A DNA stretch of 46,487 nucleotides from Rhodoferax sp. GTDB lineage: Bacteria; Pseudomonadota; Gammaproteobacteria; Burkholderiales; Burkholderiaceae_C. Under the pieces are notes generated by a model. It was not told the origin of the DNA, ran no database searches, and worked only from the letters and a program-made list of their open reading frames with translations. The position numbers were made by a program, and so were the translations under genes. Shown here one piece after another: positions 2,849-44,899 of this stretch (positions within the stretch are counted from its first letter, which is position 1; each line of letters begins with the position of its first letter). The stretch spans positions 1 to 46,487 of the forward strand of contig JARLJH010000029.1 of NCBI GenBank assembly GCA_031291305.1, given 5' to 3'.

Positions 2849-2893
2849 CAAAGCCGACACTGCGGCTTTCATAAAACCGCAGTGTCGGCTTTG
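2849..2893 (+). terminator. strong hairpin, probable terminator of the peptidase gene
   Basis: A perfect 17-bp stem (2849-2865 with 2877-2893) encloses an 11-nt loop and lies about 105 bp after the peptidase stop. There is no clear T-tract, so it may be a factor-assisted or bidirectional terminator. It would also insulate the nifB promoter, whose distal NifA-like site begins at 2892. Confidence 0.7.
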
Positions 2894-2907
2894 TCGCATC
2901 ACTGACA
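2892..2907 (+). promoter_or_regulatory. distal NifA upstream activator site for nifB
   Basis: The sequence is TGTCGCATCACTGACA, a perfect TGT-N10-ACA match to the established NifA activator site. It lies 84 bp upstream of the -24 element, within the usual spacing for loop activation of sigma54 polymerase. Confidence 0.7.
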
Positions 2908-2945
2908 ACCCGCCGGGAGGCTGCGTCACGTGGTGGTTGCTCTCA

Positions 2946-2961
2946 TGTGTCACAACCGACA
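2946..2961 (+). promoter_or_regulatory. proximal NifA upstream activator site for nifB
   Basis: The sequence is TGTGTCACAACCGACA, again a perfect TGT-N10-ACA. It lies only about 30 bp upstream of the -24 element, closer than typical, and 54 bp downstream of the distal site (about five helical turns), so the two could bind NifA on one DNA face. Confidence 0.6.
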
Positions 2962-2990
2962 AAACCCAGACAAAAGCCCGTGTTTTCGGG

Positions 2991-3006
2991 TGGCATGGAT
3001 ATCGCT
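2991..3006 (+). promoter_or_regulatory. sigma54 (-24/-12) promoter of the nifB operon
   Basis: TGGCATGGATATCGCT matches the sigma54 consensus with the invariant GG and GC ten bases apart; the only core deviation is C for T beside the -12 GC. It lies 45 bp upstream of the nifB ATG and downstream of two NifA-type sites, so NifA- and RpoN-dependent transcription under nitrogen-fixing conditions is inferred. Confidence 0.75.
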
Positions 3007-3050: not shown

Positions 3051-4661
3051 ATGCAAACAAGCGCGCTCACCGGTTCCACCCCCGGCACGACCTATGTCGG
3101 CATGGGGCAACTCAAGCCTCTGAAGATCAAGATTGAAGCGGCATCCACTGCAGGAGGCGGCTGCAGTACATCGGGCGGCGAGGGCAAGGCCAGTTGTGGC
3201 TCGTCCGACGGCCCCGAAGATATGCCCAAAGCCATTTGGGACAAGGTCAAAGACCACCCTTGTTACTCCGAAGAAGCGCACCACCACTTTGCCCGCATGC
3301 ATGTGGCGGTCGCCCCGGCCTGCAACATTCAGTGCAACTACTGCAACCGCAAATACGACTGCTCCAACGAGTCGCGCCCCGGTGTGGTGTCGCAAAAGCT
3401 CACGCCTGAGCAGGCCGTCAAGAAAGTAGTGGCCGTGGCCAGCGAGATTCCGCAAATGACGGTGCTGGGCATTGCCGGCCCAGGTGATGCGCTGGCCAAC
3501 CCCAAGAAAACCTTTGACACCTTCCGCATGCTGCAAGAGCAGGCTCCGGATTTGAAGCTGTGCATTTCCACCAACGGCCTGGCACTGCCAGACCTGGTGG
3601 ATGAAATCTGCAAGTACAACGTCGATCACGTCACCATCACCATCAATATGGTGGACCCGGCCGTGGGCGAAAAAATCTACCCCTGGATTTTCTGGGACCA
3701 CCGGCGTGTCAAAGGCTATGAGGCTGCCAAGATCCTGCATGAGCGCCAAATGTTGGGTCTGGAAATGCTCACCGCACGCGGTGTGCTGACCAAGATCAAC
3801 TCGGTGCTGATTCCTGGCATCAACGACGAGCACCTGATTGAAGTGAACCGCGAGGTGAAAAAACGCGGTGCTTTCCTGCACAACATCATGCCGCTGATCT
3901 CCGAGCCCGAGCACGGCACCGTGTTTGGCCTAACCGGCCAGCGTGGCCCAACGGCTTCTGAGTTGAAAGCTGTGCAGGATGCCTGCATGGGCGGCGCCAA
4001 CCTGATGCGCCATTGCCGCCAGTGCCGTGCCGATGCGGTGGGCCTGCTGGGTGAAGACCGCAGCGACGAATTCACACTCGACAAGCTGGAGCAAATGGAT
4101 GTGGTCTACGACCTGGACAAACGCCGCAGCTACCAAGAAAAGGTTGAACTCGAACGCAACGCCCAACAAGCCGCCAAACAAGAAGCCCTGGCCGCCGCCA
4201 GCGCCGTGCCCGCAGCTGACGACCTGACCGTGCTGGTGGCCGTGGCCACCAAGGGCGGCGGCAAAGTCAATGAGCACTTTGGCCACGTGACCGAGTTCCA
4301 AGTCTTTGAAGTGTCCGCCACCAAGGCGCTGTTTGTTGGTCACCGCCGTGTCGATCAGTATTGCCAGGGCGGCGAGGGTGATGACGAGCAACTGCCCTCG
4401 GTCGTGCGCGCCATCAACGACTGCCACGCCGTGCTGGTGGCCAAGATCGGCGCCTGCCCGAAGGATGAGCTGACCGCTGCCGGGGTGGAGCCGGTGGATG
4501 CTTATGTGGGAGAGTTCATTGAGAAAGCCGCCCTGAGCTGGTTCAACGACTACCGTGCCCGAATTGCCAGCGGCGCCGTTGTGCATCAAAACCGTGGCGA
4601 TGCCCAGATTCGCCAGGGTGCCTTCACCCATGTTTCAGACAGCGTTGCGTTGGCTGCCTGA
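3051..4661 (+). CDS. nifB: NifB, FeMo-cofactor biosynthesis radical SAM protein
   Basis: NifB fuses two [4Fe-4S] clusters with insertion of carbide to make NifB-co, the precursor of the nitrogenase FeMo-cofactor. The radical SAM motif is C91-xxx-C95-xx-C98, preceded by the conserved HHxFARMH region. After the radical SAM barrel (to about residue 340) comes a charged linker and then a NifX/NafY-like cofactor-binding domain (about residues 390-510) that includes the HFGH motif. The 536-residue length fits the long, NifX-fused form common in proteobacteria. It is the first gene of a long plus-strand nif operon and is preceded by a sigma54 promoter with NifA sites; the A/G-rich AAAGGA upstream of the ATG is a suitable ribosome site. 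Confidence 0.97.
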
Positions 4662-4694
4662 GTTTAATTTCGTCAACCTCATTGGAGAAACACC

Positions 4695-4889
4695 ATGGTC
4701 CAAAAGATCAACACCGAAACCTGCACCAGCTGCGATGCTTGCCAACCCGAATGCCCCAACGCCGCCATCAGCGTCAAGAAGGGTCTCTACGTTGTCAACG
4801 CCAGCCTGTGCACCGACTGCGAAGGCCACTTTGATGAACCTCAGTGCGTGGCCGTCTGTCCGGTAGACGATTGCATCACTGAAGTTTGA
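4695..4889 (+). CDS. fdxN: FdxN-type 2[4Fe-4S] ferredoxin
   Basis: A 64-residue ferredoxin with two cluster motifs: C10-x2-C13-x2-C16-x3-C20 and C39-x2-C42-x8-C51-x3-C55, plus an extra C60. The enlarged spacing of the second motif is typical of the FdxN/YfhL-like ferredoxins encoded next to nifB. It lies 33 bp after nifB with a GGAGAAAC ribosome site. The family role is to supply electrons to NifB and/or nitrogenase; its position supports a NifB-related role here. Confidence 0.92.
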
Positions 4890-4918
4890 CTTTCATTCAT
4901 CCAAGAAAGACCGCCATC

Positions 4919-5326
4919 ATGTTGCCCAACCTCACCATCACACCCGCAGCTGCGAAATTCATCAACCGCATCGTGCGCTTTTCTGGTCTGGCTGCTGGCG
5001 CTGGCTTGCGCCTGGCCGTCAAGCCGGGTGGCTGCTCGGGCTACTCGTCGGAGTTCAGCCCCGAGCAAGCGCCACAGGACGGTGAGCAGCTGCTCGAAGT
5101 CGGTGGCGTGCGTCTGTTCCTGGCGGCTGAGAGTCGCCTGCTGCTCAATGGACTGATCGTTGACTTCGTTGAAACCGCCACACAGTCCGGGCTGACGTTC
5201 ACTGACCCCAACAAGGAAGCCTGCGCCTGCAGCAGTGCCGACACAGCTCCCAAGGTCGGTGTAACCCGGATCGATGTTGGGTCGATTGGCCGAGGCCGCC
5301 CGGCGGCCTCCGTGCTCTCATCCTGA
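4919..5326 (+). CDS. nif-type HesB/IscA iron-sulfur assembly protein
   Basis: An A-type Fe-S carrier of 135 residues. The three family cysteines are present: C39 (in GGCSGY), C102 and C104 (in CACSS). The start at 4919 (ATG, encoding MLPNLTI) is chosen over the upstream in-frame GTG/TTG codons because it aligns with the family N-terminus and follows an AAGAAAGA ribosome-like sequence. It probably accepts or transfers clusters for NifB or nitrogenase maturation, working with NifS downstream. The C-terminal tail of about 25 residues after the CxC motif is longer than usual and of no recognised function. Confidence 0.9.
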   Translation: MLPNLTITPAAAKFINRIVRFSGLAAGAGLRLAVKPGGCSGYSSEFSPEQAPQDGEQLLEVGGVRLFLAAESRLLLNGLIVDFVETATQSGLTFTDPNKEACACSSADTAPKVGVTRIDVGSIGRGRPAASVLSS

Positions 5327-5342
5327 CCCGCCCCGTTGCGCC

Positions 5343-5906
5343 ATGAATGCGGACAGCCAGCGCTTTGCCAATGACCTTGCGGCGTTTGCCGACGGTGCCA
5401 TTGGCGGCGGCTTGGCGCCGCAGGTTGAGGCGCTGCTCATGGAGGCCGGGAAATGGCGTCATGTGCCCGGCAAGGCGCTGCCCTTGCTGGAGCAGGCCCG
5501 TGCGGCTGCACCGCGTCACCCGGCGCCGTTGATTGCCCTGTATCGCTTTTACTTTTATGGTCACCAGTTGGCGCAGGCGCGCGCCGTGGGCGAAGACGCT
5601 CTGGCCATTGCCCGCACCGCTCTCGGGGCGGACTTTGGTGACCTCCCTCCGGGTGACGACGCCACCCGAAACGACCCCGCCGTGCGTTTCTATCTGTTCA
5701 CGCTCAAGGGTCTGGCCTATCTGAACATGCGCCTGGACGACATGGATGAGGCGCGGCTGATGCTGGGTGAATTGCGCCGTCTGGACCCGCAAGACCATGT
5801 GGGCGGAGCCTTGCTGTTGCATGTGCTCAACCGCCGCGACAACGGATACCCCGCCGATGCGCCCGCCGATTACCCGGTGCGCGGCTGGGGGGCGCCAGGC
5901 TCATGA
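5343..5906 (+). CDS. nif-associated TPR-like helical protein
   Basis: A 187-residue, helix-rich, Ala/Leu-rich soluble protein. The pattern of paired helices (about residues 45-80 and 115-155) with small residues at TPR-consensus positions suggests two or three degenerate tetratricopeptide repeats, hence a protein-binding role. ATG at 5343 is chosen because the longer frame upstream overlaps the IscA gene and is rich in Pro and Arg. Its stop overlaps the LRV start by 4 bp, implying translational coupling. Proteins of this kind recur near nifB in betaproteobacteria, but I know of no established function. Confidence 0.75.
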   Translation: MNADSQRFANDLAAFADGAIGGGLAPQVEALLMEAGKWRHVPGKALPLLEQARAAAPRHPAPLIALYRFYFYGHQLAQARAVGEDALAIARTALGADFGDLPPGDDATRNDPAVRFYLFTLKGLAYLNMRLDDMDEARLMLGELRRLDPQDHVGGALLLHVLNRRDNGYPADAPADYPVRGWGAPGS

Positions 5907-6745
5907 ACGCGATTACTGCATCGCCAGGCACTCGCGACACGATTCGCCTGGCCTGCGTGCGAGCGCCCGAGGACGACATTGCGCCGCAACATTGGCAAGG
6001 CGGGGAGATCCATTGCGAGACCTGTGTGCACGCAGCGATGCGGCATCTGCCAGAGCAACAAGGGTGTGAGCCAGGCTACGCCTGTTTGCAAGACGTCTAC
6101 GCGCGTCGCATCGACCGATTCTTCCGTTGGCACCCGACGCTGGCGGACGCCCACATCACCCACCCGTATTTCGAGGTGCGCGCCATTGCTGCGCGCTATG
6201 TCAACGTGTTTCGGCTGGGCAGCCTGATCAGTGACCCGGATGAAACTGTGCGGCTGCAAGTGGCACTGCGCCTGCCGCCGACCCAACTCACCGCGCTGGT
6301 GGCAGACCCGCACCGCGAGGTGCGCATCCGCGTGGCACAACGCTTGTCTGCCACCGAACTGGCCAGCCTTCGACATGACCCCGACTATGGCGTGCGTGAG
6401 CTGGTCGCGCAAAGGCTGTCGCTGGCGATCTTGCCCACCATGGCCAATGACCCGGATCGGGCAGTGCGCATGCGGGTGGCGCAACGCTTGGAGATGCCCG
6501 CGCTGCTGCGTATGGTTGACGATAGCGAGCCCGAGGTCCGGCGCATGGTGGCTGAGCGCCTGCCTGTGGCACTGCTGTCGCGCTTGGCCCATGATGAGGA
6601 CTGGCGTGTGCGCTGGGAAGTTGCCCAGCGGGCTGATGCCAACCTGCTCAAAGCCATGTGGCAAGACCCCGAACCCGAAGTGCGCGAGGCCGTTCAGGCG
6701 CGCCACGCGCATACCGTCACGCCACTAGGAGTAGCCCATGGCTGA
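5903..6745 (+). CDS. LRV (leucine-rich repeat variant) [4Fe-4S] protein
   Basis: The N-terminal domain contains C38-x2-C41-x13-C55-x5-C61, the cluster ligands of the LRV_FeS4 domain first described in the Azotobacter vinelandii LRV protein, which is encoded among nif genes. From about residue 75 on there are eight or so short repeats of about 24 residues with the pattern DPxxxVRxxVAxRLxxxxLxxL, forming a right-handed alpha/3-10 superhelix. The function is unknown; a redox- or cluster-sensing scaffold for nitrogenase maturation is an inference. It is coupled to genes on both sides (4-bp overlap upstream, 8-bp overlap with nifZ). Confidence 0.9.
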   Translation: MNAITASPGTRDTIRLACVRAPEDDIAPQHWQGGEIHCETCVHAAMRHLPEQQGCEPGYACLQDVYARRIDRFFRWHPTLADAHITHPYFEVRAIAARYVNVFRLGSLISDPDETVRLQVALRLPPTQLTALVADPHREVRIRVAQRLSATELASLRHDPDYGVRELVAQRLSLAILPTMANDPDRAVRMRVAQRLEMPALLRMVDDSEPEVRRMVAERLPVALLSRLAHDEDWRVRWEVAQRADANLLKAMWQDPEPEVREAVQARHAHTVTPLGVAHG

Positions 6746-7100
6746 TATCAACCGCGACGATGTCGAGATCGAGCTGGCTTATCCACCCCGCTTCAGCTAC
6801 GGTGAACGGGTGATCGCTCGCTCCGTGGTGCGCAACGATGGCACCTACTGCGGTCGCGACATTGGCGACGTGCTGGTCCACAAGGGCGACATTGGCTATG
6901 TGATCAACATCAACACTTTTTTGCAGCAGTACTACATCTACGCCGTGGACTTTGTCGAGTCCGGCCACCGCGTGGGCATGCGCGCCAAGGAACTGTGCAC
7001 GCTGGACAACCTGCCCGGGGAGGTGCTGGCCCAACTGGGCGACAAGGCCAGTGCGCTGCCCATGCTCGGCTCTGCCAAACCTCTGGAGGAAACATCATGA
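6738..7100 (+). CDS. nifZ: NifZ family protein (first copy)
   Basis: A 120-residue NifZ-family protein. NifZ assists formation of the second P-cluster in the MoFe protein. Visible family features are the SYGERVIARSxVRNDGTY block, the VxxGDxGYVxxIxTFLQ(Q)YYIYAVDF block and a C-terminal acidic tail. The start is an ATG with a GGAGTAGCCC ribosome site inside the LRV gene. The stop overlaps the next gene in an ATGA arrangement. Confidence 0.93.
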   Translation: MADINRDDVEIELAYPPRFSYGERVIARSVVRNDGTYCGRDIGDVLVHKGDIGYVININTFLQQYYIYAVDFVESGHRVGMRAKELCTLDNLPGEVLAQLGDKASALPMLGSAKPLEETS

Positions 7101-7390
7101 CCACCAACGCCATGCCCGGTCTGGAACCCCGCGAACCTGCTTATGCCTGGGGTCAGCGTGTTATTGCGCTGGATGATTTGATCAACGACGGCAGCTACCC
7201 CGAGCGCGACGAAGACGCCTTGCTGGCCGCACGTGGCACCGTGGGCGAGATCGTCAACATTGGGCAGGCACCCGACTTGAATGAGCCGGTGTATCTGGTG
7301 CAGTTCCCCGACTGTGTGGTGGGCTGCCTGGAGATTGAGCTGGCGCCCGCGCCGCTGGGTTTGTTGCCGGAAACCGAGGATCTGATGTGA
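7097..7390 (+). CDS. NifZ-like protein (second copy)
   Basis: A 97-residue paralogue of NifZ: the WGQRVIALDDLINDGSYPE and GTVGEIVNIG blocks align with the NifZ SH3-like fold, but the sequence is shorter and lacks the tyrosine-rich segment. ATG at 7097 overlaps the stop of the first nifZ (ATGA) and follows GGAGGAAA, an excellent ribosome site. Tandem NifZ genes suggest a heteromeric NifZ or specialised client proteins; both are inference. Confidence 0.88.
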   Translation: MTTNAMPGLEPREPAYAWGQRVIALDDLINDGSYPERDEDALLAARGTVGEIVNIGQAPDLNEPVYLVQFPDCVVGCLEIELAPAPLGLLPETEDLM

Positions 7391-7737
7391 ACACGGCGGC
7401 CCGCAGCGTTGCCCCCACTAGCGCCCAGGTGCTGGACTTGGTGGTGCGCCGCGTGGAGCGTGCACTGAAAGAGCGTGTGCGCTACCGCTACGTGAAACCG
7501 CTGGTGCTGCGCGAGGGCGAGAGCTATCGCATTCAGAGCCCCTGCTGCTCGCGCAAGGTGGACCCCAGCGGCGGCTTGATTGACATCGCCCTGCTGGTGC
7601 CCCATGCGGGCGGCCACTGGTGCCTGTGCTCGCGTGATCATGCCAACAGTACCTGGGTCGCCCAACATCAGAATGAGCCGTTGGACGTGATGCTGGACTT
7701 GCTGTGTGTGGACAGCGAACACCAGTTCTGGGTCTGA
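7387..7737 (+). CDS. nif-operon small cysteine-containing protein, function unknown
   Basis: A 116-residue protein starting at GTG 7387, overlapping the stop of the second nifZ-like gene. The N-terminal third is Arg-rich and helical; the middle contains a CC pair (SPCCSRKVDP) and a CxC (HWCLCSRDH), which could bind zinc or an Fe-S cluster. The C-terminus is acidic with VDSEHQFWV. I do not recognise the family; placement between nifZ and nifS suggests a maturation role. Confidence 0.7.
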   Translation: MNTAARSVAPTSAQVLDLVVRRVERALKERVRYRYVKPLVLREGESYRIQSPCCSRKVDPSGGLIDIALLVPHAGGHWCLCSRDHANSTWVAQHQNEPLDVMLDLLCVDSEHQFWV

Positions 7738-7756
7738 CGCCAAGGGCTGCACCATC

Positions 7757-8908
7757 ATGATCTACCTCGACCACAACGCCACCACAGCGCCCGCACCTGA
7801 GGTGATAGCGGCCATGCTGGCGGTGTTGTCCAACGGGTGGGCCAACAGCTCGTCACAACACGCGGCGGGGCAAGAGTCCAAACGCACCCTGGCCGCAGCC
7901 CGTGCCACGGTAGCCCGGGTGCTGGGCTGCAAGCCGGTCGAGGTGATCTTTACCAGCGGCGCCACCGAGGCCAACCACCTGGCGGTGCGCGGCCTGCTGG
8001 CTGCGGCCAGCCCCGAGCGCAAACGTGTGCTGTTCAGCAGCGTGGAACACGCCGGGCACTTGCGCCTGGCGCGCGCCCTGGCCGCTGCAGGTGTGGCTGT
8101 GGACTGGTTGCCGGTGCGGCCCGACGGCACGCTGGACCTGACCGCTGCGCAGGCCTTGATCGGCCCCAATGTGGCATTGGTGTCGCTCATGGCGGCCAAC
8201 AACGAAACCGGCGTGCTGATGCCCGTGGCCGAAGTGGCGGCACTGACGCACGCGGCAGGCGCTGTTCTGCACGTGGATGCCACCCAGTTCATCGGCAAGT
8301 TGCCGTTCAACTTCGCTAGCTTTGGGGCCGACGCCGTGTCGCTGTCCGCCCACAAGTTTCAAGGCCCCAAAGGGGTTGGCGCGCTGTTGTTGCGCCAAGG
8401 TGTGTCGCTGACGCCGCAAACATTGGGCAGCCAGGAGCGTGGTCGCCGCGGTGGTACGGAGAATTTGCCCGGCATTGTCGGCATGGCCGCGGCGCTGGAC
8501 TTGCTGGGCAATCTTGGCGCACAAGCCGCGCGTATCGCTGGCTTGCGTGACGCGCTGGAAAGCGGCCTTAAAAACGCGCTGCCAGACACCCACGTCTGGT
8601 GCCAGAACGTGCCACGCCTGCCGGGCACCACCTATGTGCGCTTTGGGCAACTCTCGGTCGATGTGGTGCTGCAGCGGTTGGACCGTCTGGGTGTGGCCGC
8701 CTCCAGCGGCGCGGCTTGCTCTTCTGGCGGCAGCGAGCCATCCCACGTATTGACCGCCATGGGCGTGCCTGCGGACGAGGCGCTGGCTGCCGTGCGCTTT
8801 TCCCTTGGCAGCACCACAACCGCCGACGAGATCGCCTACCTGTTGCAGGAGTTGCCGCCCTTGCTGGCGCCGCTGCTCTGTGAAGAAGAACTACTGACTG
8901 CTCCTTAA
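7757..8908 (+). CDS. nifS: NifS cysteine desulfurase
   Basis: A PLP-dependent enzyme converting cysteine to alanine with transfer of sulfur for nitrogenase Fe-S clusters. Visible residues are the YLDHNATT start, the SVEHAG substrate loop, the PLP lysine K200 in SAHKFQGPKG, and the persulfide cysteine C321 in SSGAACSSGG. ATG at 7757 gives 383 residues and the canonical NifS N-terminus; the longer frame upstream overlaps the preceding gene. No nifU was seen adjacent, so the sulfur acceptor here may be the IscA-type protein or an unlinked NifU. Confidence 0.96.
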   Translation: MIYLDHNATTAPAPEVIAAMLAVLSNGWANSSSQHAAGQESKRTLAAARATVARVLGCKPVEVIFTSGATEANHLAVRGLLAAASPERKRVLFSSVEHAGHLRLARALAAAGVAVDWLPVRPDGTLDLTAAQALIGPNVALVSLMAANNETGVLMPVAEVAALTHAAGAVLHVDATQFIGKLPFNFASFGADAVSLSAHKFQGPKGVGALLLRQGVSLTPQTLGSQERGRRGGTENLPGIVGMAAALDLLGNLGAQAARIAGLRDALESGLKNALPDTHVWCQNVPRLPGTTYVRFGQLSVDVVLQRLDRLGVAASSGAACSSGGSEPSHVLTAMGVPADEALAAVRFSLGSTTTADEIAYLLQELPPLLAPLLCEEELLTAP

Positions 8909-8949
8909 AGCAAACCTGAAATCCAAACTTACCCAACCAGGAGCCGACG

Positions 8950-9168
8950 ATGAAATTAATGATCCGCAAAGACAGCAAAGGTGTCCTGACCGGCTATGTA
9001 CCCAAGAAAGACTTGGAAGAGCCCATCACTGCCATGGCCAACCCCGGCATGTGGGGCGGGTTGGTGACGCTGGGCAACGGCTGGCAGTTTGAGCTGCCCG
9101 ACATGCCTGCTGACACGCCGCTGCCCATCACTGTCGAAGCCCGTCGCCTCGCGGTGACGGAGGAATAA
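8950..9168 (+). CDS. nifT: NifT/FixU family protein
   Basis: A 72-residue protein with the NifT signature: N-terminal MKLMIRK, a KKDLEEPI segment, GMWGGLVTLGNGWQFELP and a VEARRL C-terminus. NifT is usually found beside nifHDK and is not essential; its biochemical role is unresolved. Here it sits 41 bp after nifS with an AGGAGCC ribosome site. Confidence 0.93.
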   Translation: MKLMIRKDSKGVLTGYVPKKDLEEPITAMANPGMWGGLVTLGNGWQFELPDMPADTPLPITVEARRLAVTEE

Positions 9169-9179
9169 GAAAGCCGACC

Positions 9180-9440
9180 ATGCCCGTCACCCCCGACTAC
9201 CTGCGCAGCGCTGCTGAAGTGATCAGCAGCGCTGCGTCACTGCGTGAAGCCGCCACGCTCTGGCGCACCCGCGACCCCGCCATGCGCGTCGTGGTGGTTG
9301 ACGCCATGGACATGCGTGACGAAACACCCGCGCTGCGCCAAGGTTCACGCAGTATTTACCTCGCCACCTCCGACGGCCACTGCTGGTCCATCACCCAAAA
9401 GCCTGAAGAAGCGACCGCGCTGATTCTGGCCGAAGACTGA
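9180..9440 (+). CDS. small nif-associated protein, function unknown
   Basis: An 86-residue protein 11 bp after nifT and 7 bp before the DegT-like gene. It begins with a helix (YLRSAAEVISSAASLREAA), followed by a strand-rich region (MRVVVVDAMDMRD) and a hydrophobic end, with one Cys (C64). I do not recognise the family with certainty; similar small proteins follow nifT in several betaproteobacterial nif clusters, as far as I recall. No catalytic motif is evident. Confidence 0.7.
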   Translation: MPVTPDYLRSAAEVISSAASLREAATLWRTRDPAMRVVVVDAMDMRDETPALRQGSRSIYLATSDGHCWSITQKPEEATALILAED

Positions 9441-9447
9441 TACTGCT

Positions 9448-10608
9448 ATGGAAGTGGACGTTATCTCCCTGTTCGAGCCAGAGTGCGGCGAACGCGAACT
9501 GGCCCTGGTGACCGCTGTGCTGCAGTCCTCCCGCTGGGGCGACGGCCCGATGGTGGAGTCATTCGAGCGCGCCTTTGCCGGTTGGGCTGGGCGCAAACAT
9601 GCGGTGGCGGTGGGCAGTGGCACGCTGGGAGTCTGGATCGCGCTGCGCGCCATGGGCATTGGCCCCGGTGACGAGGTGATTTGCACCTCGCACACCTGGC
9701 ATCAGGTGGCGCAAGCCATCACCCTGACAGGTGCCACGCCGGTGTTTGCCGACATCAATTACTGGACTGGCAGCTTGAGCCCCGAGAAGGCCGCGCTCAA
9801 GATCACCCCCAACACCCGTGCCATGCTGGCCGGCAACACCAATGGCCATCCAGCGGCGTGGGAGCCTTTGCGCAAACTGGCTGATGCGCATGGCCTCAAA
9901 CTGATCGAAGACAGCACCGAATCCTTTGGCTCGCGCTACCAGGGCCAGACCGTGGGTACGTTTGGCGACGTGTCGGTGTTTGACTTTTCCGCACCCTCTG
10001 CACTGTGCACGGGCGAGGGCGGCATGCTGGTCACCGATGACGATGCCTTGGTGCACGAGCTGCGCTACCTGCGCCAGCGCCGTCTGGCAGATCGCTCCTC
10101 GGTATCCGTGGGCTCGCGGGTGCCGTTGCAGGCCGGTATGAGCGAAATGACGGCGGCGCTGGGTCTGGCACAACTGGCCGGGCTGGATGATCGTCTGGCG
10201 GCACGCAGACAAGTGGTGAGCTGGTACCACGAGCAGATGCAGAGTTTTGAAGGCATCAAGCCGCCCTACATCGGTCAGGATGTGGATGAGGTGCATTGGA
10301 TGCTCTACGTGGTGCATCTGGGTAAGCGCTTTTCAGGCAGCGCGCGTGCGCAAATGATTGACGACCTGCTCTCCTGCGGCATTGAAACAGCCCCCTACAG
10401 CCACCCGTTGCACCAGCAGTTTTATTACATGAATGCGGGTGACGCCGCTGGTCAGCGCCGCGGTGTGCTGATCGACACCGACCGCATTGGTGACCGCGCA
10501 CTGGCGCTGCCTTTGCACACCTTGCTCGATGAGTCCCAGGTTGAGTACATCGTGAAAACGCTCAAAGACACCGCCTCCAATGTTGGCGCCGGTGCGGCTA
10601 TTTATTAA
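9448..10608 (+). CDS. DegT/DnrJ/EryC1-like protein lacking the PLP lysine
   Basis: A 386-residue fold-type I aminotransferase-like protein of the sugar aminotransferase (DegT/DnrJ/EryC1/StrS) family. It keeps the N-terminal WG(D)GPxVxxFE region, the GSGTLGVWIAL segment, the cofactor-binding Asp region (LIEDSTESFGS) and the GEGG motif. At the position where the family has the Schiff-base lysine (FSFxPxKxLxxGEGG) this protein has Ser184 (FSAPSALCTGEGG). It therefore cannot be an ordinary PLP transaminase and may be a pseudoenzyme, a binder, or an unusual enzyme comparable to the lysine-less dehydratase ColD, which uses His. It sits inside the nif operon, 13 bp before the SIR2-like gene. Confidence 0.88.
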   Translation: MEVDVISLFEPECGERELALVTAVLQSSRWGDGPMVESFERAFAGWAGRKHAVAVGSGTLGVWIALRAMGIGPGDEVICTSHTWHQVAQAITLTGATPVFADINYWTGSLSPEKAALKITPNTRAMLAGNTNGHPAAWEPLRKLADAHGLKLIEDSTESFGSRYQGQTVGTFGDVSVFDFSAPSALCTGEGGMLVTDDDALVHELRYLRQRRLADRSSVSVGSRVPLQAGMSEMTAALGLAQLAGLDDRLAARRQVVSWYHEQMQSFEGIKPPYIGQDVDEVHWMLYVVHLGKRFSGSARAQMIDDLLSCGIETAPYSHPLHQQFYYMNAGDAAGQRRGVLIDTDRIGDRALALPLHTLLDESQVEYIVKTLKDTASNVGAGAAIY

Positions 10609-10620
10609 CAAGGAAACACC

Positions 10621-11466
10621 ATGGATAACCAAGATTTGATCCAAGAAATTGCCCGCAGCCTGGCTACCGGCGTGGTTATTCCATACATGGGGCCAGAGAT
10701 GCTGTCGCTGTGCGCAGACGTCGCTGTGCCAGCCACGCCGCTGGCGCTGGCCGAAAGCATGACGGCCAAGGTCAGCGTGCCGCACAAGATCCGCAAGCGT
10801 CTGACCCAGACCGCGCAGTTCATCGAGAACTTCAAACACCGCAAATCGGTGGTGCACCTGATGAACGAGGCCTTTGCGACCTCGCCCGCACCTTCGGCCC
10901 TGCAACTGGCCCTGGCCAACAGCGGCGCCAAGTTGTGGGTGGACACCTGGTACGACGACAGCTTCTCCAAGGCGCTGGCGCAGGGCGGTGACGCCTGGGT
11001 GCAGGTGCAGGGTTTGTCGCAATCCGAACACTTTGGCCAATGGACCGGCGCCTACGCCGCCGACGGCACGCCGCTGGCCGAGTTGTCCGCTGAGCCCGGA
11101 CGCATCCTCTACAAACCCTGGGGTGCCCACAGCCCGGCGGGCAATTACCTGGTGTCGGACAGCGACTATGTCGAAGTGCTCACCGAAATCGACATTCAGA
11201 CCCCCATCCCGGCAGCGGTGCAAGCCTGGCGCAGCGGGCGCAACTTCCTGTTTTTGGGCTGCCGGTTTGACGACCAGCTCACGCGCAGCTTTGCCCGCCA
11301 GATCATGAAACGCTCCAGCGACCGCCATTGGGTTGTGATGCCCAACGAGCCCACCCGCATGGAAGCGCTGTTTCTGGCGCAACAAAACATCACCCGCATC
11401 AGCCTGTCGCTGGCGGAGTTTGCACCGCTGCTGATGGGCGCCATGCAACCCGCATTGGCCGCCTGA
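10621..11466 (+). CDS. SIR2-like NAD-binding protein, nif-associated
   Basis: A 281-residue protein with a SIR2-like Rossmann arrangement: an N-terminal VVIPYMGPEML segment in place of the GAG(x)S NAD loop and a C-terminal FLFLGCRFDDQLTR segment resembling the strand-loop of SIR2_2-type proteins. The catalytic His of sirtuin deacylases is not obvious. Proteins of this group may bind or hydrolyse NAD. Its location between the DegT-like gene and a ferredoxin suggests nicotinamide-linked regulation of or electron supply to nitrogenase, which is inference. An AAGGAAACACC ribosome site precedes the ATG. Confidence 0.8.
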   Translation: MDNQDLIQEIARSLATGVVIPYMGPEMLSLCADVAVPATPLALAESMTAKVSVPHKIRKRLTQTAQFIENFKHRKSVVHLMNEAFATSPAPSALQLALANSGAKLWVDTWYDDSFSKALAQGGDAWVQVQGLSQSEHFGQWTGAYAADGTPLAELSAEPGRILYKPWGAHSPAGNYLVSDSDYVEVLTEIDIQTPIPAAVQAWRSGRNFLFLGCRFDDQLTRSFARQIMKRSSDRHWVVMPNEPTRMEALFLAQQNITRISLSLAEFAPLLMGAMQPALAA

Positions 11467-11524
11467 GCGCCCTTTTTAGATCACCTTTTTCTTCAACCCC
11501 CACGGCGCTACGCCTTTGACAACC

Positions 11525-11815
11525 ATGACCACATTGACCGTTCTTCCCTCTGGCAAATCCTATGAAGTTGCCGCTGGCACCACCTTGCTCAAAGCCTTGC
11601 AAGATGCGGGTGAGCCCATCATCAGCAAATGTGGCGGTGAAGCCAAGTGCGAAAGCTGCCACGTCTTTGTGCCCGCCGGACGCAAGAGTCTGTCCAAAAT
11701 CCAGCGTGTGGAGAACGAAAAGCTTGACGGCATTGTGGGCGTCAGCTCCGCCTCCAGGCTGGCTTGCCAGGCCATTCTGGGTGAGGAACCTGTTACGGTT
11801 GAAATACCCAAATAG
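11525..11815 (+). CDS. [2Fe-2S] plant-type ferredoxin, nif-associated
   Basis: A 96-residue ferredoxin with ligands C36-x5-C42-x2-C45-x35-C81, the spacing of adrenodoxin/plant-type [2Fe-2S] ferredoxins. ATG at 11525 is preferred over TTG at 11516. It is 58 bp after the SIR2-like gene and 54 bp before a flavoprotein, so it may exchange electrons with that flavoprotein and with nitrogenase or its assembly factors. A dispersed repeat lies right after the stop. Confidence 0.9.
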   Translation: MTTLTVLPSGKSYEVAAGTTLLKALQDAGEPIISKCGGEAKCESCHVFVPAGRKSLSKIQRVENEKLDGIVGVSSASRLACQAILGEEPVTVEIPK

Positions 11816-11860
11816 GCCTCTAGCCCTTTAGATACCCGGGTTAACAACTATCTTTAATGA
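11816..11860 (-). repeat. dispersed GGGCTAGAGGC repeat, copy 1
   Basis: Read on the minus strand this contains ATAG..TGTTAACCCGG and ends AAAGGGCTAGAGGC, matching the other copies of the family. It lies between the ferredoxin and flavoprotein genes, inside the nif operon. Confidence 0.65.
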
Positions 11861-11869
11861 AGCACTGAC

Positions 11870-13486
11870 ATGACAAGCCCCATACCCTTTCCCTCGGATC
11901 GGGTGGTCGATGTAGTCATCGTCGGGGCGGGTGTGTGCGGCTTGGCGCTGGCCCGCCAGCTGAACGCACGCGGCTTGCAGGTGCAGGTCATTGAGGCCCG
12001 CGAACGCTTGGGCGGGCGGGTGTTAACCCAGCTTTGCCCGGCCACCGGCCAGGCGCTGGACCTGGGCCCCCGATGGTTCTGGCCTGACACCGAGCCGCGC
12101 ATCACCACGCTGCTGACCGAGCTGGGTCTTGCCAGCACGCCGCAGCACGACCCAGGCGATGCGCTGTGGTTGACCGACCCCAACCGTGAACCCGAACGTC
12201 GTAGCGAGCCTGGAGGAGTCCATGCGGGTGCGCGCTGTATCGAAGGCGGCAGCGCCCGGCTGATCGACGCCTTGGCCGCGCAATTGCCAGCAGGTTGCAT
12301 TCGTACCGGTGTGGCGGTGCAAGCGCTGCGCGACAAAGGGGCGTGGATCGAGTTGTCGCTGTCTACAGGACGCCCGCTGCGGGCACGCCAAGTCGTGCTG
12401 GCTTTGCCACCGCGTCTGGTCCATGAAAAAATCGAATTTGCGCCGCCGTTGCCCGCTGCCATCGACGCCGCGCTGGCGCAGACCGCCACCTGGATGGCGG
12501 CACAGGCGCGCTCGGTGACGACGTTCGCCCAGCCGTTCTGGCGCGAAGCGGGTCAGTCGGGTAACGCCTTTGTGCGTCATGCCCAAGCGGTGCTGGCAGA
12601 GGTGTTTGACAGCAGCCAGGCTGACGAAGGTGGCGCTCTGGGCGGCTTTGTCGCACTGAATGTCGAGCAACGTGAGAGCTTCCAGCGTGGCCTGCCGCTG
12701 CTGATTGACAGCCAACTGGCCCAGCTGTTTGGCGCCAAGGCGCAGGACGGCCATATGAGTCTGCAAGACTGGGCCAACGAACCGTGGACCTGCAGCGCCA
12801 TCGACCGTGCCAGCCCACCGGAGCTGCCCGTTAACCAACCGTTGCTGCGTCAGCCGCTGTGGACGGGCAGGATCTTTTTGGGTGGCACAGAGACCGCGGC
12901 CCACGGCGCCGGACACATGGAAGGTGCGCTGGAGGCGGCCGACCGCATCGCCCACGCCATCTGCCGCCCACGCAGCGCGGCAGCCAGCGTTCCTGCGCCA
13001 GACGATGCCCCCGATTCACGCCAGACGGCGCTTGGCCAATTTGCAGCAGCTGTGCTGGCGCTGCGCGGAACGGCACCAGAGCGGTATCGTCAGCACCTTA
13101 CCCAATTGCTATCCAACCAGCAGACCGAACTGCTCACGCAGCGCGCCCTGCTGGCCACCGCTGATCAGGTGTACAGCGAGTCACTGGCTCGGCTGGACGG
13201 CCTGCTGCCCGCGCTGGATGTCACCCATGCCGAGGTGGTCAATGGCCGCCACGCCCTGAGCCCGGCGCTGTTGGCGGCGTTTGATGGCTGGAACAAAGGC
13301 CTGCTGGACGCAGCGCTGAGCTTTAACAGCAGCTCGTGCGCGCTATCCAACTTTGCACAAGACCACCACCCCGACGCCGACACGCTGCGCGCCATCACCC
13401 TGGACTTGGCAGCCGCGTGGCGCGAATTTGCGCTGGAGCTGAACACTCGCCTGCTGAGCGCCAGCGGGCATGCAGAACTGGTTTGA
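11870..13486 (+). CDS. amine-oxidase-like FAD flavoprotein, nif-associated
   Basis: A 538-residue FAD protein. The N-terminus has the dinucleotide-binding GxGxxG (VVIVGAGVCGLALA) followed by EARERLGGR, the GR(V/I) hallmark of flavin monoamine oxidases. Near residues 340-360 the FAD-closing motif GTETAAHGAGHMEGALEAAD is present. Beyond about residue 380 there is a helical extension of about 150 residues that is unusual for the family and ends with SASGHAELV. Its substrate is unknown. Linkage to a [2Fe-2S] ferredoxin upstream and a helical partner 7 bp downstream suggests an electron-transfer module serving nitrogen fixation. Confidence 0.85.
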   Translation: MTSPIPFPSDRVVDVVIVGAGVCGLALARQLNARGLQVQVIEARERLGGRVLTQLCPATGQALDLGPRWFWPDTEPRITTLLTELGLASTPQHDPGDALWLTDPNREPERRSEPGGVHAGARCIEGGSARLIDALAAQLPAGCIRTGVAVQALRDKGAWIELSLSTGRPLRARQVVLALPPRLVHEKIEFAPPLPAAIDAALAQTATWMAAQARSVTTFAQPFWREAGQSGNAFVRHAQAVLAEVFDSSQADEGGALGGFVALNVEQRESFQRGLPLLIDSQLAQLFGAKAQDGHMSLQDWANEPWTCSAIDRASPPELPVNQPLLRQPLWTGRIFLGGTETAAHGAGHMEGALEAADRIAHAICRPRSAAASVPAPDDAPDSRQTALGQFAAAVLALRGTAPERYRQHLTQLLSNQQTELLTQRALLATADQVYSESLARLDGLLPALDVTHAEVVNGRHALSPALLAAFDGWNKGLLDAALSFNSSSCALSNFAQDHHPDADTLRAITLDLAAAWREFALELNTRLLSASGHAELV

Positions 13487-13492
13487 ACCCCT

Positions 13493-13858
13493 ATGACAAC
13501 CCTGATTGACACTGCCTTGCTGGGTCTGATTGAAGAGGCCGGTACCTCCGTCGCCATTCTGATCGAGGGCTTGGAGCGGGCAGAACTGCTGCGCTCGCGC
13601 CTGACCCGCGCACAGGTGTTGCAACAGTTGAAGACCTTGGCGAGCAGCATGGCGCAGGTGGCGCCTGCCGCTCGCCAAGAGTTGCCCGAACTCGACTGGT
13701 CGGGCTGGGACGCGCTGAACCCGCGACTGAACGCCCCACCGGGCGAGGTGCTGGACGAAGCGCTGTGGTTTGCCTGCGAAGCCATGGTGCCCGCCACCCT
13801 GCTGTGGCTGCGCGTCTACCGGCAGAACCAGCCCGAGCTGTTTCGCATGGCACCGTGA
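13493..13858 (+). CDS. small helical protein, last gene of the nifB operon
   Basis: A 121-residue, all-helical, Leu/Ala-rich acidic protein starting 7 bp after the flavoprotein stop. No Cys motif, signal peptide or membrane segment is visible. It is probably a partner of the flavoprotein, whose helical C-terminal extension has similar composition. I do not recognise the family. Its 3-prime end (encoding QPELFRMAP) is duplicated twice downstream as non-coding fragments at 15048-15080 and 16314-16350. Confidence 0.7.
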   Translation: MTTLIDTALLGLIEEAGTSVAILIEGLERAELLRSRLTRAQVLQQLKTLASSMAQVAPAARQELPELDWSGWDALNPRLNAPPGEVLDEALWFACEAMVPATLLWLRVYRQNQPELFRMAP

Positions 13859-13920
13859 TGCTATTTGAAATGTAGCTTCTTGCGCTTGATTGATAAGGGC
13901 TAGAGGCTGTTTTTATATAT
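13859..13920 (+). repeat. dispersed GGGCTAGAGGC repeat, copy 2
   Basis: Starts with GATGCTATTTGAAATGTAGC and contains GCGCTTGATTGATAAGGGC then TAGAGGCTGTTTTTA, one of the best-preserved copies. The partly self-complementary GCGCTTGAT..ATAAGGGC and the T-run immediately after the operon's last stop suggest it serves as its terminator. Confidence 0.75.
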
Positions 13921-14207
13921 AGATGTTGCCAGCCTCCCAGGCATGCAAGCCGGATGCTAGTCGACTGGTCACTTGCGCCAAAGTTGCGCTGCCTGCGGGT
14001 TATAGTGACCGCTCAACCAACCACTAGGCAGCCGGATTGACTTGGCCATCGGCATGCTGGTATTTCTGGAATTGTGATGACCCTTGACCTTGAACAGAAG
14101 TCGCCGGTAGCCCTGATTGCATGCGGTTTTCTGAATGTTTTTGATGCCTGTGTTGGGGAGGCGATGGGCATGTTTTGGAGACAGAAGACTGTCTTCATTT
14201 ATTGAGT
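13921..14207. other. intergenic stretch without a convincing gene
   Basis: Between the nif operon's terminal repeat and the 254-aa hypothetical gene. A minus-strand frame (reading ...RRLLFKVKGHHNSRN...) spans 13969-14190 but has no start or family resemblance I can recognise, so I leave it uncalled. Base composition drops here toward AT, marking the edge of the nif block. Confidence 0.4.
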
Positions 14208-14972
14208 ATGTCCCAAGACGCTGACCCCAACGACCTCGCTGTGCCGATGTTTGAGATCCTCCGGTCCATCGGTTTCGGAGATCATGGGAACCCACACCAC
14301 TTCAACATTGGCACTTTGTTCTGGTCACTCACCAGACTCTTTGGCTGCTATGAGCGGATCATTTCGACGCTTGAGTTTCCCTTTAGTGAGCGGCCGTTCC
14401 TAGAGGCCGACATCGAGAATTTCATAGTTCGCTTTCGCATCGTTTTGAACGACATTGCTTACGTTCTGTGGCAGTTACTACCGCAGAATGCGCGGGGCCT
14501 CAAAGGACCAAAGGGAGGTACGCATCCGAAGAACAAGGAGGTTTCTATCGTCGCCATCTCTGACTATCTAAAAGCGAATCCAACCTTATATCCGGAATTG
14601 GCCGACGCTCTCGCCAGAGCGCAGCCCTGGATTTCCAGGCTCAAGAACGACCGAGACAATGTCGTTCACTACAAATCCAAGGCGCTGGTCTTCGATACGC
14701 AGCCGCCCTCCTTCGCTCTGGTCAATGCCGCGGGCACTGAGCGGTCGGAAACAACTCCGGACGGCGGGTCCCGATTGGTTCTTGAGCCCATCCCGGGCTT
14801 TGTGAACGGTCAGCTACTTGCGCTACACAACTTCATGCACACAGATCTTGCGCCAGCCATTCGTGCATATGCCGTTAGGTCAAACTTCAAGTTGATGACA
14901 GTAGGCTGGAATGAACGAATACGGTGCATCGGCACCCGGACCTTCAAGACGCAGAACGGAGTTGTGGCATAA
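14208..14972 (+). CDS. hypothetical protein
   Basis: A 254-residue soluble protein, start ATG 14208 (an upstream TTG at 14175 is also in frame). Helical N-terminal half with SLTRLFGCYERI and an ERPFLEADIENFIVRFRIV segment; the middle has ISRLKNDRDNVVHYKSKAL, whose RDNVVHY is reminiscent of HEPN-like or MAE_28990-type domains where Rx4-6H is catalytic, but this is only a resemblance. The gene is less GC-rich than its neighbours and lies between two copies of a duplicated 30-bp sequence (13828 and 15048), suggesting insertion. Function unknown. Confidence 0.65.
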   Translation: MSQDADPNDLAVPMFEILRSIGFGDHGNPHHFNIGTLFWSLTRLFGCYERIISTLEFPFSERPFLEADIENFIVRFRIVLNDIAYVLWQLLPQNARGLKGPKGGTHPKNKEVSIVAISDYLKANPTLYPELADALARAQPWISRLKNDRDNVVHYKSKALVFDTQPPSFALVNAAGTERSETTPDGGSRLVLEPIPGFVNGQLLALHNFMHTDLAPAIRAYAVRSNFKLMTVGWNERIRCIGTRTFKTQNGVVA

Positions 14973-32824: not shown

Positions 32825-33391
32825 CTAAACCTCGGGTGAAAAGCACTTGTCATGGTCTGCGCACTCACCGCACGACGGCGCGGGGCAGACGTAGATGCCC
32901 TCTCGGCTGCAGTAGTGACGGTAGATGAACTTCTTCCACTTCATGTCGCCCGTGTTCTGCTCGGACAGCGATGGGAAGACCTGAGTCATCAGGGTGGAGA
33001 GTTCACCCCGGTCAGCCAGGCCCAGGTCTTGCCACAGGTGGTTGCGCCCACTGCAACCATAGGCCACGATGTGCGCCATCCAGACCTCGGAGTCGTTCAC
33101 GCCTGCACGGTATTCCAGCAGCAGCTTGCGCAGGTCGTCGAGTTCGAGCATGTCCAGGATGGGACCACCCTGCAAGTTCAGGCGTTCGCCGGGAAAGTAG
33201 CTGGCCCACAGCGACTGGAAATCTGCCTCTGACAAACCCAGCGTGGCACTGAGTACGCCTTGGTGCAGGCTGCGCCCGGCGAGCATGCTGGCCAAAACCG
33301 GACGCAGCGGGTCGGCAGCGGCAGTTGGCGGCACGGGCCGATTCAGCAGTTCGGCCTGCAACAACACCCGGCAGTTATGTAATGGGTTCAC
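32825..33391 (-). CDS. nifQ: NifQ, molybdenum donor for FeMo-co synthesis
   Basis: A 188-residue NifQ. The C-terminal cysteine motif conserved in the family is present in the segment HYCSREGIYVCPAPSCGECADHDKCF, here spread over about residues 158-184 (C160, C168, C173, C176, C182). NifQ carries a [Mo-3Fe-4S] cluster and delivers molybdenum to the NifEN/NifH cofactor assembly. The start overlaps the modD stop (ATGA). It is the last gene of the minus-strand modE / nifX-like / modD / nifQ set. Confidence 0.95.
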   Translation of the reverse strand: MNPLHNCRVLLQAELLNRPVPPTAAADPLRPVLASMLAGRSLHQGVLSATLGLSEADFQSLWASYFPGERLNLQGGPILDMLELDDLRKLLLEYRAGVNDSEVWMAHIVAYGCSGRNHLWQDLGLADRGELSTLMTQVFPSLSEQNTGDMKWKKFIYRHYCSREGIYVCPAPSCGECADHDKCFSPEV

Positions 33392-34224
33392 GGCGCTGTC
33401 CTGAAAGTGACCTGAACATCTTTGGGGGGTGCCCAGTAGGGTGACGAGGTGACCAGAAAGTCTGCCCCGGCCGCCACATAGGCCGCTGCGTTGTCAGCGC
33501 GAATGCCGCCTGCGGCGGCCAGCAAAGGGTGGGGCGTTGTCGGGCTATCACGCAACGCTTGCCGACAGGCCGCGACGGCGTCGGGCGTGAATTTTTCGAG
33601 TTGCAAAACATCGGCACCAGCCTGTGCCCACAGCACCGCCTCGGCCACGTCAGCGACTTCAACGGCCAGTTTTTTCTCGGGTTGGGCTTGGCGCAGCCGC
33701 TGCAGGGTGTCTGCGGGTGACGCGTTCAGAAACAGCCGGTGTTCGGCAAAAACGAGCATGCTTTCCGACAGACCCAGCCTGTGCATGATGCCGCCGCCAG
33801 CTTTTACCGCCTTGACCGACAAGGCTTTGGTGCCAGGGGTGTTCTTGCGCGTGCAGGCCACGGCGACGCCATTGGCCGCCGCCACGATGGCTGCCGTGGC
33901 GGTGGCGATGCCACTGGTCCATTCGACCAAGGTCTGGGCGACCTTCCAGGCCCGGTGCAGGCTGGCTGCCGTGCCCTGCGCCTGCAGCAGCACGTCACCC
34001 GCCGCCACGCTGGTGCTTGAGGGAACCACCAGCAGCGCGTGGGCACCCGCCAGCTCGAACAAGCGGCAGGCTTCTTCGGTGGCGCAGACGGTCATCGGTT
34101 GGCGGGCGCGAAATGTCAGTTGGGCCGCCTGTGGACCAATGCCCAGGGTGTGTGTGGTCAGGTCGCCATGGGGGGCATCGTCGTGCAGCAGGCTCTGTAG
34201 ATAAGCGTCGTTTGAGGTGTGCAT
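33388..34224 (-). CDS. modD: ModD, nicotinate-nucleotide pyrophosphorylase-like protein
   Basis: A 278-residue protein related to quinolinate phosphoribosyltransferase (NadC): DDAPHGDLTTHTLG at the N-terminus, RKNTPGTKALSVKAVKAGGG in the core, VEVADVAEAVLWAQAGADVLQLEKF and AAAGGIRADNAAAYVAAGADFLVTSS. ModD is encoded in molybdenum operons of nitrogen fixers; its reaction is unknown. ATG 34224 follows the NifX-like stop almost directly (1-bp gap), indicating coupling. The upstream extension in frame overlaps the NifX-like gene and is discarded. Confidence 0.9.
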   Translation of the reverse strand: MHTSNDAYLQSLLHDDAPHGDLTTHTLGIGPQAAQLTFRARQPMTVCATEEACRLFELAGAHALLVVPSSTSVAAGDVLLQAQGTAASLHRAWKVAQTLVEWTSGIATATAAIVAAANGVAVACTRKNTPGTKALSVKAVKAGGGIMHRLGLSESMLVFAEHRLFLNASPADTLQRLRQAQPEKKLAVEVADVAEAVLWAQAGADVLQLEKFTPDAVAACRQALRDSPTTPHPLLAAAGGIRADNAAAYVAAGADFLVTSSPYWAPPKDVQVTFRTAP

Positions 34225-34225
34225 G

Positions 34226-34612
34226 TCAATGGCGCGAGAACAGGTCGCGCAGTTTGCAGAGCGTGGTGGTGATGTCAAAGCGGGTGTCCGCCAGAGCTTC
34301 ACCCGCCAGGACCTTTTTCAGAGCAGTCAGAGGCTCGGTTTCGCCGGTCAGCAGCACCTGCGCGCCCCACTTTTCCATGTGGCGAATGTAGCCGTCGCCC
34401 GCGCTGGCCGCCACCACGACTTCCACGCCGTGAAGTGGGTGCGGGCCGTCGTCTTTGAAGTGGTGCGGTAGCTGCGCCTTGGTGAGTTCAATGCGCTGTG
34501 GCTCTGGCAAGGTTTGGCCGGGCTGGCAGTCGTATACCAGCCAGTCGGTGGTCTGGCCCGCATGGCCCGACACCTGCGACCAGTCGGCTTTGGTGGCAAT
34601 GGCGATCTTCAT
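34226..34612 (-). CDS. NifX/NafY-family FeMo-co-binding-like protein
   Basis: A 128-residue member of the dinitrogenase iron-molybdenum cofactor (NifX/NifB-C) family: MKIAIATK start, SGHAGQTTDWLVYD (the ribonuclease-H-like fold's cofactor-binding GHxG region), and VEVVVAASAGDGYIRHMEKWGAQVLLTGE. It probably binds cofactor precursors or molybdenum clusters. ATG 34612 fits the family; a longer frame upstream is discarded. Its place beside modD and nifQ suggests a molybdenum-handling chaperone. Confidence 0.88.
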   Translation of the reverse strand: MKIAIATKADWSQVSGHAGQTTDWLVYDCQPGQTLPEPQRIELTKAQLPHHFKDDGPHPLHGVEVVVAASAGDGYIRHMEKWGAQVLLTGETEPLTALKKVLAGEALADTRFDITTTLCKLRDLFSRH

Positions 34613-38970: not shown

Positions 38971-38971
38971 G

Positions 38972-44003: not shown

Positions 44004-44012
44004 GAACGAGGT

Positions 44013-44739: not shown

Positions 44740-44791
44740 GAAAATTCCTTTGTGTTGGTTGAGACGGTGAATGGAAGGCTGACCTTCTATT

Positions 44792-44807: not shown

Positions 44808-44899
44808 GCCCAAAATCAGGCAGAACACGCGGCAAATACGACACAAACAGGTGTTGATCAGGCTGGATCAGGGGGTATTTGCGACACCTCATGCGGTTT

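Follow-up and report, generated by a model that had tools for sequence, protein, structure and literature searches.

We analysed the full 46,487-nucleotide (nt) stretch of contig JARLJH010000029.1 from Rhodoferax sp. (assembly GCA_031291305.1), hereafter the window, in which five genes close a nifB operon: those for a DegT-like protein, a SIR2-like protein, a [2Fe-2S] ferredoxin, an amine-oxidase-fold flavoprotein and a 121-amino-acid (121-aa) all-helical protein. The SIR2-like gene accompanies nitrogenase almost throughout the order, and the folds of both the SIR2-like and the DegT-like protein look disarmed, judged by their lost catalytic residues. The cassette is built in two layers, a DegT/SIR2/ferredoxin core and an optional flavoprotein plus 121-aa pair, and is not one module. 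With moderate confidence, we propose that the SIR2-like protein, together with the DegT-like protein where present, serves the maturation or protection of nitrogenase as an adaptor or scaffold without catalysis of its own, and that the ferredoxin supplies electrons. As a sequence-only reading of the window had described, all five open reading frames (ORFs) lie on the + strand and close the operon, and for the first four Pfam matched the family labels given there. The operon-like spacing of 8-58 bp noted in that reading agrees closely with the measured intergenic gaps of 7 nt (between an 86-aa ORF, p86, and the DegT-like gene), then 12, 58, 54 and 6 nt.

For the link to nitrogenase, 299 genomes of the order besides the window's own were drawn evenly, and matches to the SIR2-like protein were compared with matches to NifD. 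Forty-seven genomes were counted as nifD-positive (45 over the cut-off and two, G030 and G201, with fragments) and 252 as nifD-negative. A SIR2-like relative was present in 46/47 nifD-positive versus 1/252 nifD-negative genomes (Fisher p = 6e-52, a value that ignores shared ancestry); the gene does not occur independently of nitrogenase and mainly in non-diazotrophs, and the proposed nif linkage is borne out. The 121-aa protein was found in 17/47 nifD-positive versus 2/252 nifD-negative genomes, and close relatives of the flavoprotein (E<1e-90) in 12/47 versus 1/252. The SIR2 relatives fall into a close group, subfamily A (35 order genomes, at least 49% identity), and a remote group, subfamily B (12 order genomes, 25-29% identity), which never occur together in one genome (0/299). 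In other genomes of the order, the subfamily-B gene lies near nifHDK or rnf genes (L073-L078). The sole nifD-negative genome with a SIR2 relative, G135, also has a nif-type DegT, the ferredoxin and the 121-aa gene, and may therefore be a diazotroph whose assembly is incomplete. In a phylum sample of 258 other genomes, searched with a profile of subfamilies A and B, SIR2 was detected in 12/36 nifD-positive versus 2/222 nifD-negative genomes; the link holds in the phylum, yet two thirds of the nifD-positive genomes have no detected relative.

The SIR2-like gene (10621-11466, + strand) encodes a 281-aa protein of subfamily A matching Pfam SIR2_2 (1.8e-20). Its AlphaFold model has a predicted local distance difference test (pLDDT) score of 93.2, and the best Foldseek match is ThsA (E 9.3e-11), followed by DSR2 and KomC. 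In the HMMER alignment, the catalytic Asn of TTNYD corresponds to Trp110, and this residue is Trp in 118 and Gly in one of the 119 subfamily-A sequences; this set and those used below (92 DegT, 54 121-aa and 38 flavoprotein sequences) were not de-duplicated and include near-identical pairs. For the His of the HG motif the counterpart is residue 167, which is Trp in the window, I, L, W, M or F in 117/119 subfamily-A sequences and His in the other two. This second mapping is based on a YKPxG stretch followed by an SDSDY helix, together with TPHG in two rhizobial copies, and is less sure because HMMER instead placed the His of KomC at residue 148. The Ser of GAGxS is replaced by Leu. Six subfamily-B sequences (alignment A6) keep the Asn and have Leu or Met at residue 167. 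The catalytic Asn and His occur together in none of the 119 subfamily-A sequences, and no SIR2 sequence examined has both. Among the PADLOC defence models, the protein matched only LmuA (0.0028). On these residues a true sirtuin or NADase was rejected, and the nicotinamide sensing or turnover that had been suggested for this protein is not supported.

The DegT-like gene (9448-10608, + strand; 386 aa) is covered by the DegT_DnrJ_EryC1 domain (PF01041, 3.7e-91) over residues 14-372. When aligned to perosamine synthetase 3bn1, the position of the Schiff-base lysine, which precedes GEGG, is Ser184. Across 92 family sequences this position is S in 64, G in 20, L in 6 and C in 2, never His, and Lys is absent from the whole of residues 178-193 (0/92). 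The pyridoxal-fold protein without its lysine was thus correctly recognized in the sequence-only reading; with neither Lys nor His, no conserved base is left at this position, and pyridoxal chemistry is not supported. A pyridoxal phosphate (PLP)-dependent aminotransferase was rejected on the missing lysine, and a dehydrase of the ColD/E1 type on the S, G, L or C in place of His. The family retains the PLP-type Asp155 and the SGT stretch. Beyond the Pfam domain, a C-terminal tail (KD...N.GAG.AIY) is conserved; its end, N-x-G-A-G-x-A-I-Y, is near-invariant, with a final Leu added in some members, and may be a docking peptide, perhaps for the subfamily-A SIR2 protein.

A profile of the nif-type DegT was run on 80 chosen genomes, of which the 32 nifD-negative ones (31 and G135) were picked rather than drawn at random. 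It scored at least 600 bits in 25 nifD-positive genomes, in G135 and in the window, and every carrier of this DegT has a subfamily-A SIR2. All other DegT proteins in the 80 genomes scored at most 251 bits, except a 259-bit DegT fragment at a contig edge in the nifD-positive G236. The literature searched, outside which most subscription journals fall, yielded no publication on this DegT-like nif-cluster gene.

The layering of the cassette emerges from its neighbourhoods. Among 84,980 species genomes scanned, at least 531 SIR2 relatives were found; the best 80, a set biased to near kin, were kept as named loci (Rhodoferax, Polaromonas, Hydrogenophaga, Paraburkholderia, Derxia, Zoogloea, Azoarcus and others). 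In 76 of these 80 the SIR2 gene has core nif genes as neighbours; in the remaining four (L164, L172, L182, L229), sir2 is close to a contig end. Gene patterns after nifT were counted in the 67 loci that have enough sequence on both sides. All four other genes accompany SIR2 in 19, degT and the ferredoxin gene in 14, degT, ferredoxin and 121-aa genes in 12, degT, ferredoxin and flavoprotein genes in 8, degT alone in 7, the ferredoxin gene alone in 2 and none of the four in 5. The single five-gene module of the sequence-only reading is therefore not upheld, since the loci other than these 19 lack one to four members. Given these patterns, SIR2 is the constant member, followed by degT and the ferredoxin gene, and the flavoprotein and 121-aa genes are optional. 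Two regions of rhizobial symbiosis plasmids carry nifB, fdxN, nifZ, nifT and SIR2, in that order, with no degT. The flavoprotein gene lies at most 1.8 kb downstream of sir2 in 29/73 loci with enough sequence, and the genes of the optional layer often sit elsewhere in nif islands. In L161, L165, L173, L176 and L189, SIR2 directly follows p86/nifT and the other four genes are absent there, making these loci natural deletions. A recurring nif accessory gene set was seen in L140, L142, L145, L149, L150 and L136 (a Methylococcus plasmid), comprising a zinc ribbon protein, the 121-aa protein, an ATP-binding protein, GST, SelO, a fumarylacetoacetate hydrolase-like protein and small unknown proteins.

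The ferredoxin (11525-11815, + strand; Pfam Fer2, 5.3e-10) is of the ISC/adrenodoxin type and has 96 residues when read from the ATG at 11525; the program-made ORF list starts it at a TTG at 11516 instead. Its cluster cysteines C36, C42, C45 and C81 are invariant (16/16). The best solved relative is the E. coli ISC ferredoxin (1i7h, 6.7e-19), and the protein reaches 66.7 of the 132.1 bits set as the NCBIfam cut-off for the ISC equivalog (TIGR02007). The profile match to Azotobacter FeSII is at E 5.3e-5 and ranks below ISC ferredoxins and adrenodoxins.

The flavoprotein (11870-13486, + strand; 538 aa; Pfam Amino_oxidase PF01593, 1.6e-37), an optional member of the operon, keeps the GxGxxG glycines G19, G21 and G24, which are invariant. 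The C-terminal extension that the sequence-only reading called novel is present and looks helical (residues ~370-538), but it is not peculiar to this genome, as 37 other copies are at least 480 aa long. In the 299 other genomes of the order, the full-length protein occurs in 6 and short copies in 7. At a position mapped from MAO-B, which we take to be that of the flavin-adjacent Lys of monoamine oxidase (MAO), the residue is K in 37/38 copies and R in the window's own. A small Rieske ferredoxin gene stands directly before the flavoprotein gene in L141, L143, L144, L153 and L156, whereas the window showed no Rieske match. In the Paraburkholderia loci L204 and L211, only short separate stretches of the flavoprotein were matched downstream of the ferredoxin, as would be expected of a gene in decay.

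The 121-aa protein (13493-13858, + strand), also an optional member, has no Pfam match. The PADLOC defence models gave no match to it. Its family profile gave nothing below E 0.1 against solved structures and is unrelated to the flavoprotein profile (probability 0.1%), which speaks against the extension being the same domain. Its predicted model is helical with structural matches to HEPN/HepT toxins, and weak Pfam HepT/HEPN matches were found in 13/42 of its relatives. The RX4-6H motif occurs at residues 60-95 in 2/54 family members and anywhere in 12/54, and is conserved in none of these placements. From the predicted model, the protein is probably HEPN/HepT-like with its RNase motif lost.

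Counterparts of the SIR2-like gene appear in published nif clusters. In Rhodobacter capsulatus, Rcc03262, a SIR2 family protein, ends the gene group nifB1-rcc03265-nifZT-rcc03262; it was quantified at 7.3 and 6.6 fmol in the wild type and was not found in the nifA1-A2 mutant (PMC6925177). In Pseudomonas stutzeri, PST1325 adjoins nifH and shows 9.68-fold induction; a non-polar mutant of it retains 23% of wild-type nitrogenase activity (PMC2820453). This gene was annotated as a conserved hypothetical protein in 2010 (PMC2820453) and as a SIR2 family protein in 2024 (PMC11332353). From its name and a gene order like that of L073 and L078, we infer that PST1325 is the subfamily-B counterpart. SIR2-like genes are also listed in the nif cluster of Zymomonas mobilis (ZMO1821; PMC8594446) and in a Rhodovulum nif operon (PMC9412634). 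The statement that none of the five is a standard nif gene consequently stands by name, whereas SIR2-like genes had already been listed in nif clusters. In the sections of this literature covered by our search, they appear in tables and lists only, and the lost NADase residues, the two subfamilies and the DegT partner go unmentioned.

Proteins that keep a fold and a conserved surface after losing catalytic residues usually act by binding, and the operon companions nifB, fdxN, nifZ, nifS and nifT belong to established families that point to cluster assembly; these considerations, with the co-occurrence counts and the lost catalytic residues, lead us to favour a non-catalytic adaptor or scaffold. 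The published absence of Rcc03262 from the nifA1-A2 mutant and the low nitrogenase activity of the PST1325 mutant fit this view. The SIR2-like protein would be the core factor, with subfamily A in the nifB operon and subfamily B often near nifHDK or rnf, each replacing the other. In subfamily-A genomes it is usually joined by the DegT-like protein and the ISC-type ferredoxin. The SIR2-like and DegT-like proteins might serve as scaffolds or ligand-gated adaptors in the delivery of metalloclusters to nitrogenase or in its protection, with the DegT tail docking, perhaps onto SIR2-A, and the ferredoxin giving electrons to this step. The flavoprotein and the 121-aa protein would form a separate optional layer, appended to the operon in the Rhodoferax window genome. 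More tentatively, a pseudo-sirtuin derived from the defence NADase fold could be an overlooked near-core nif factor in nitrogen-fixing proteobacteria of this and related groups. Together with a pseudo-aminotransferase docked by its invariant NxGAGxAIY tail, and with a pseudo-HEPN protein in some lineages, it would make up a complex of disarmed enzymes gating or delivering metalloclusters during nitrogenase assembly. Transfer of nitrogen fixation to new hosts needs every protein that nitrogenase requires to be known, and the SIR2-like protein offers a directly testable missing part. If true, this would clearly exemplify how folds of defence proteins and sugar enzymes can be put to new use as assembly factors once catalysis is lost.

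Several observations weigh against the adaptor or scaffold proposal. No SIR2 relative was detected in 24/36 nifD-positive genomes of the phylum sample, nor in G132, a nifD-positive genome of the order, and SIR2 is therefore not needed everywhere. DegT is absent from 8/34 nifD-positive subfamily-A genomes. The tie between PST1325, the probable counterpart with a mutant phenotype, and subfamily B comes solely from its annotation and from gene order. A conserved pocket could still accommodate or convert a ligand, so that "non-catalytic" is deduced from the known catalytic residues being gone.

Against this background, we consider it unlikely that the cassette is a redox module in which the ferredoxin and flavoprotein pass electrons while the SIR2-like protein senses or consumes NAD, so that nitrogenase maturation or electron supply would follow nicotinamide or flavin redox state, as the sequence-only reading had it. 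The set does include a [2Fe-2S] ferredoxin with four cysteines and a flavoprotein of the FAD type, and the Rieske gene preceding the flavoprotein gene in five relatives suggests a ferredoxin partner for the latter, but both NADase residues occur in none of the 119 SIR2-A sequences, and the flavoprotein gene is near sir2 in only 29/73 loci and fragmented in some Paraburkholderia. With their catalytic residues lost, the SIR2-like and DegT-like proteins give no support to NAD or flavin redox coupling; the ferredoxin and flavoprotein may still have a redox function. It is doubtful that the genes are passengers, moving with the nifB operon by common descent or transfer and adding little. Each of the DegT, ferredoxin, flavoprotein and 121-aa genes is missing from some intact operons and the co-occurrence counts ignore shared ancestry, as passengers would have it; residue conservation across the families is nevertheless very high (mean column identity 58% in alignment A1 and 72% in A2), subfamilies A and B replace each other, SIR2 is kept where DegT is lost, and PST1325 has a phenotype.

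We judge it improbable that the DegT-like protein is a small-molecule enzyme, namely a pyridoxamine phosphate (PMP)-dependent deoxygenase like the CDP-4-keto-6-deoxyglucose-3-dehydrase E1 or ColD, fed by the ferredoxin and producing a nitrogenase ligand or cofactor. Its solved relatives include ColD and E1, and the fold, Asp155, the SGT stretch and the adjoining [2Fe-2S] ferredoxin would suit such a role. In ColD and E1, however, a His replaces the Schiff-base Lys, and this position is S, G, L or C in 92/92 nif-type sequences. Least credible of all is a guard or defence remnant, in which the SIR2-like and HepT-like proteins are relatives of defence NADases and RNases riding in nif islands: the structural matches to ThsA, DSR2, KomC and HEPN/HepT toxins fit it, but the catalytic motifs are lost, PADLOC gave no good match, and the strict nif linkage and the published PST1325 mutant phenotype run counter to it.

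Upstream of the cassette, and on the same strand, the operon (3051..9440, +) contains nifB, its first gene beginning at 3051, followed by fdxN, an iscA-like gene, genes for a TPR protein and an LRV FeS4 protein, nifZ, a second nifZ, h116, a nifS-like gene, nifT and p86, after which the cassette genes follow. The NifT, NifS, LRV and TPR labels come from Pfam/NCBIfam, and the remaining upstream labels from comparison with similar annotated loci of Paraburkholderia aromaticivorans and Methylococcus. A probable NifA-dependent promoter (2892..3005, +) was assigned by consensus match only. It comprises two TGT-N10-ACA sites preceding nifB (2892-2907 and 2946-2961, both +) and, by a loose pattern, a -24/-12-like box, TGGCATGGATATCGC, at 2991-3005 (+). 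Both sites are kept at equal distance in 9/11 relatives and a single site in the remaining two; the box was found by the loose pattern in 4/11, all close Rhodoferax-type genomes. NifA control, as proposed in the sequence-only reading, thus gains these conserved sites while its basis stays a consensus match. Counts of internal promoters and terminators over 4600-14300 were no better than in shuffled sequence, and no RNA family reached gathering level in the window.

The host assembly is 99.99% complete in 69 contigs and encodes NifA, and it gave no NifH match over the cut-off, no NifD match and no NifDKEN-domain match (nifH, nifD, nifK, nifE, nifN). Similarity of the window to the region upstream of nifH in Rhodoferax sp. 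U2-2l (L161) ends at 44917, and in L161 nifH begins ~240 bp past the aligned stretch. Where nifH would be expected, a defence gene of the Shedu type, SduA (45378-46451, -), fills the window to the end of the contig. The nifHDKEN structural genes are either lost or in an unassembled part of the genome; because all 16 operon genes remain open in the window, the nif status of the host was not taken as evidence. The flanking island holds, on the - strand, genes for CowN (38698-39180), a NifO/ArsC-like protein (about 39253), a rhodanese-ankyrin protein (39666-40550), a SagB-type nitroreductase (40537-42231), DraG (42224-43153), DraT (43146-44090) and a conserved hypothetical protein (44134-44892). 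Three consecutive TGT-N10-ACA sites (35650, 35670, 35703) and a -24/-12-like box (35749) precede a modA-like gene at 35807, with ModD (33388-34302) and a NifQ-like gene (about 32831) close by.

Compared by description only, R. capsulatus Rcc03262 and the Rhodovulum gene share with the window protein the SIR2 name and the position after nifT, the presence of Rcc03262 being NifA-dependent, and P. stutzeri PST1325 shares the name, lies beside nifH and has a reported mutant phenotype. The ferredoxin has the fold and four cysteines of both ISC [2Fe-2S] ferredoxins and Azotobacter FeSII, but attains half the ISC equivalog cut-off and appears far from FeSII. The 121-aa protein resembles HepT/HEPN toxins in the helical fold of its predicted model; unlike them, it lacks RX4-6H in the expected region in 52/54 relatives, and no MNT antitoxin gene was noted beside it. 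The DegT-like protein is homologous over the whole domain to the DegT/DnrJ/EryC1/StrS sugar aminotransferases (3bn1, ArnB) and to the PMP dehydrases ColD and E1, from which the nif-type proteins differ in having neither Lys nor His at the Schiff-base position and an additional conserved C-terminal tail, and in forming a separate high-scoring clade. Finally, the SIR2-like protein shares its fold with the phage-defence SIR2 NADases ThsA, DSR2 and KomC (Foldseek E 9.3e-11 to 1e-8; template modelling (TM) score ~0.67) and has weak profile matches to them; subfamily A differs in carrying Trp in place of the Asn of TTNYD and Leu in place of the Ser of GAGxS.

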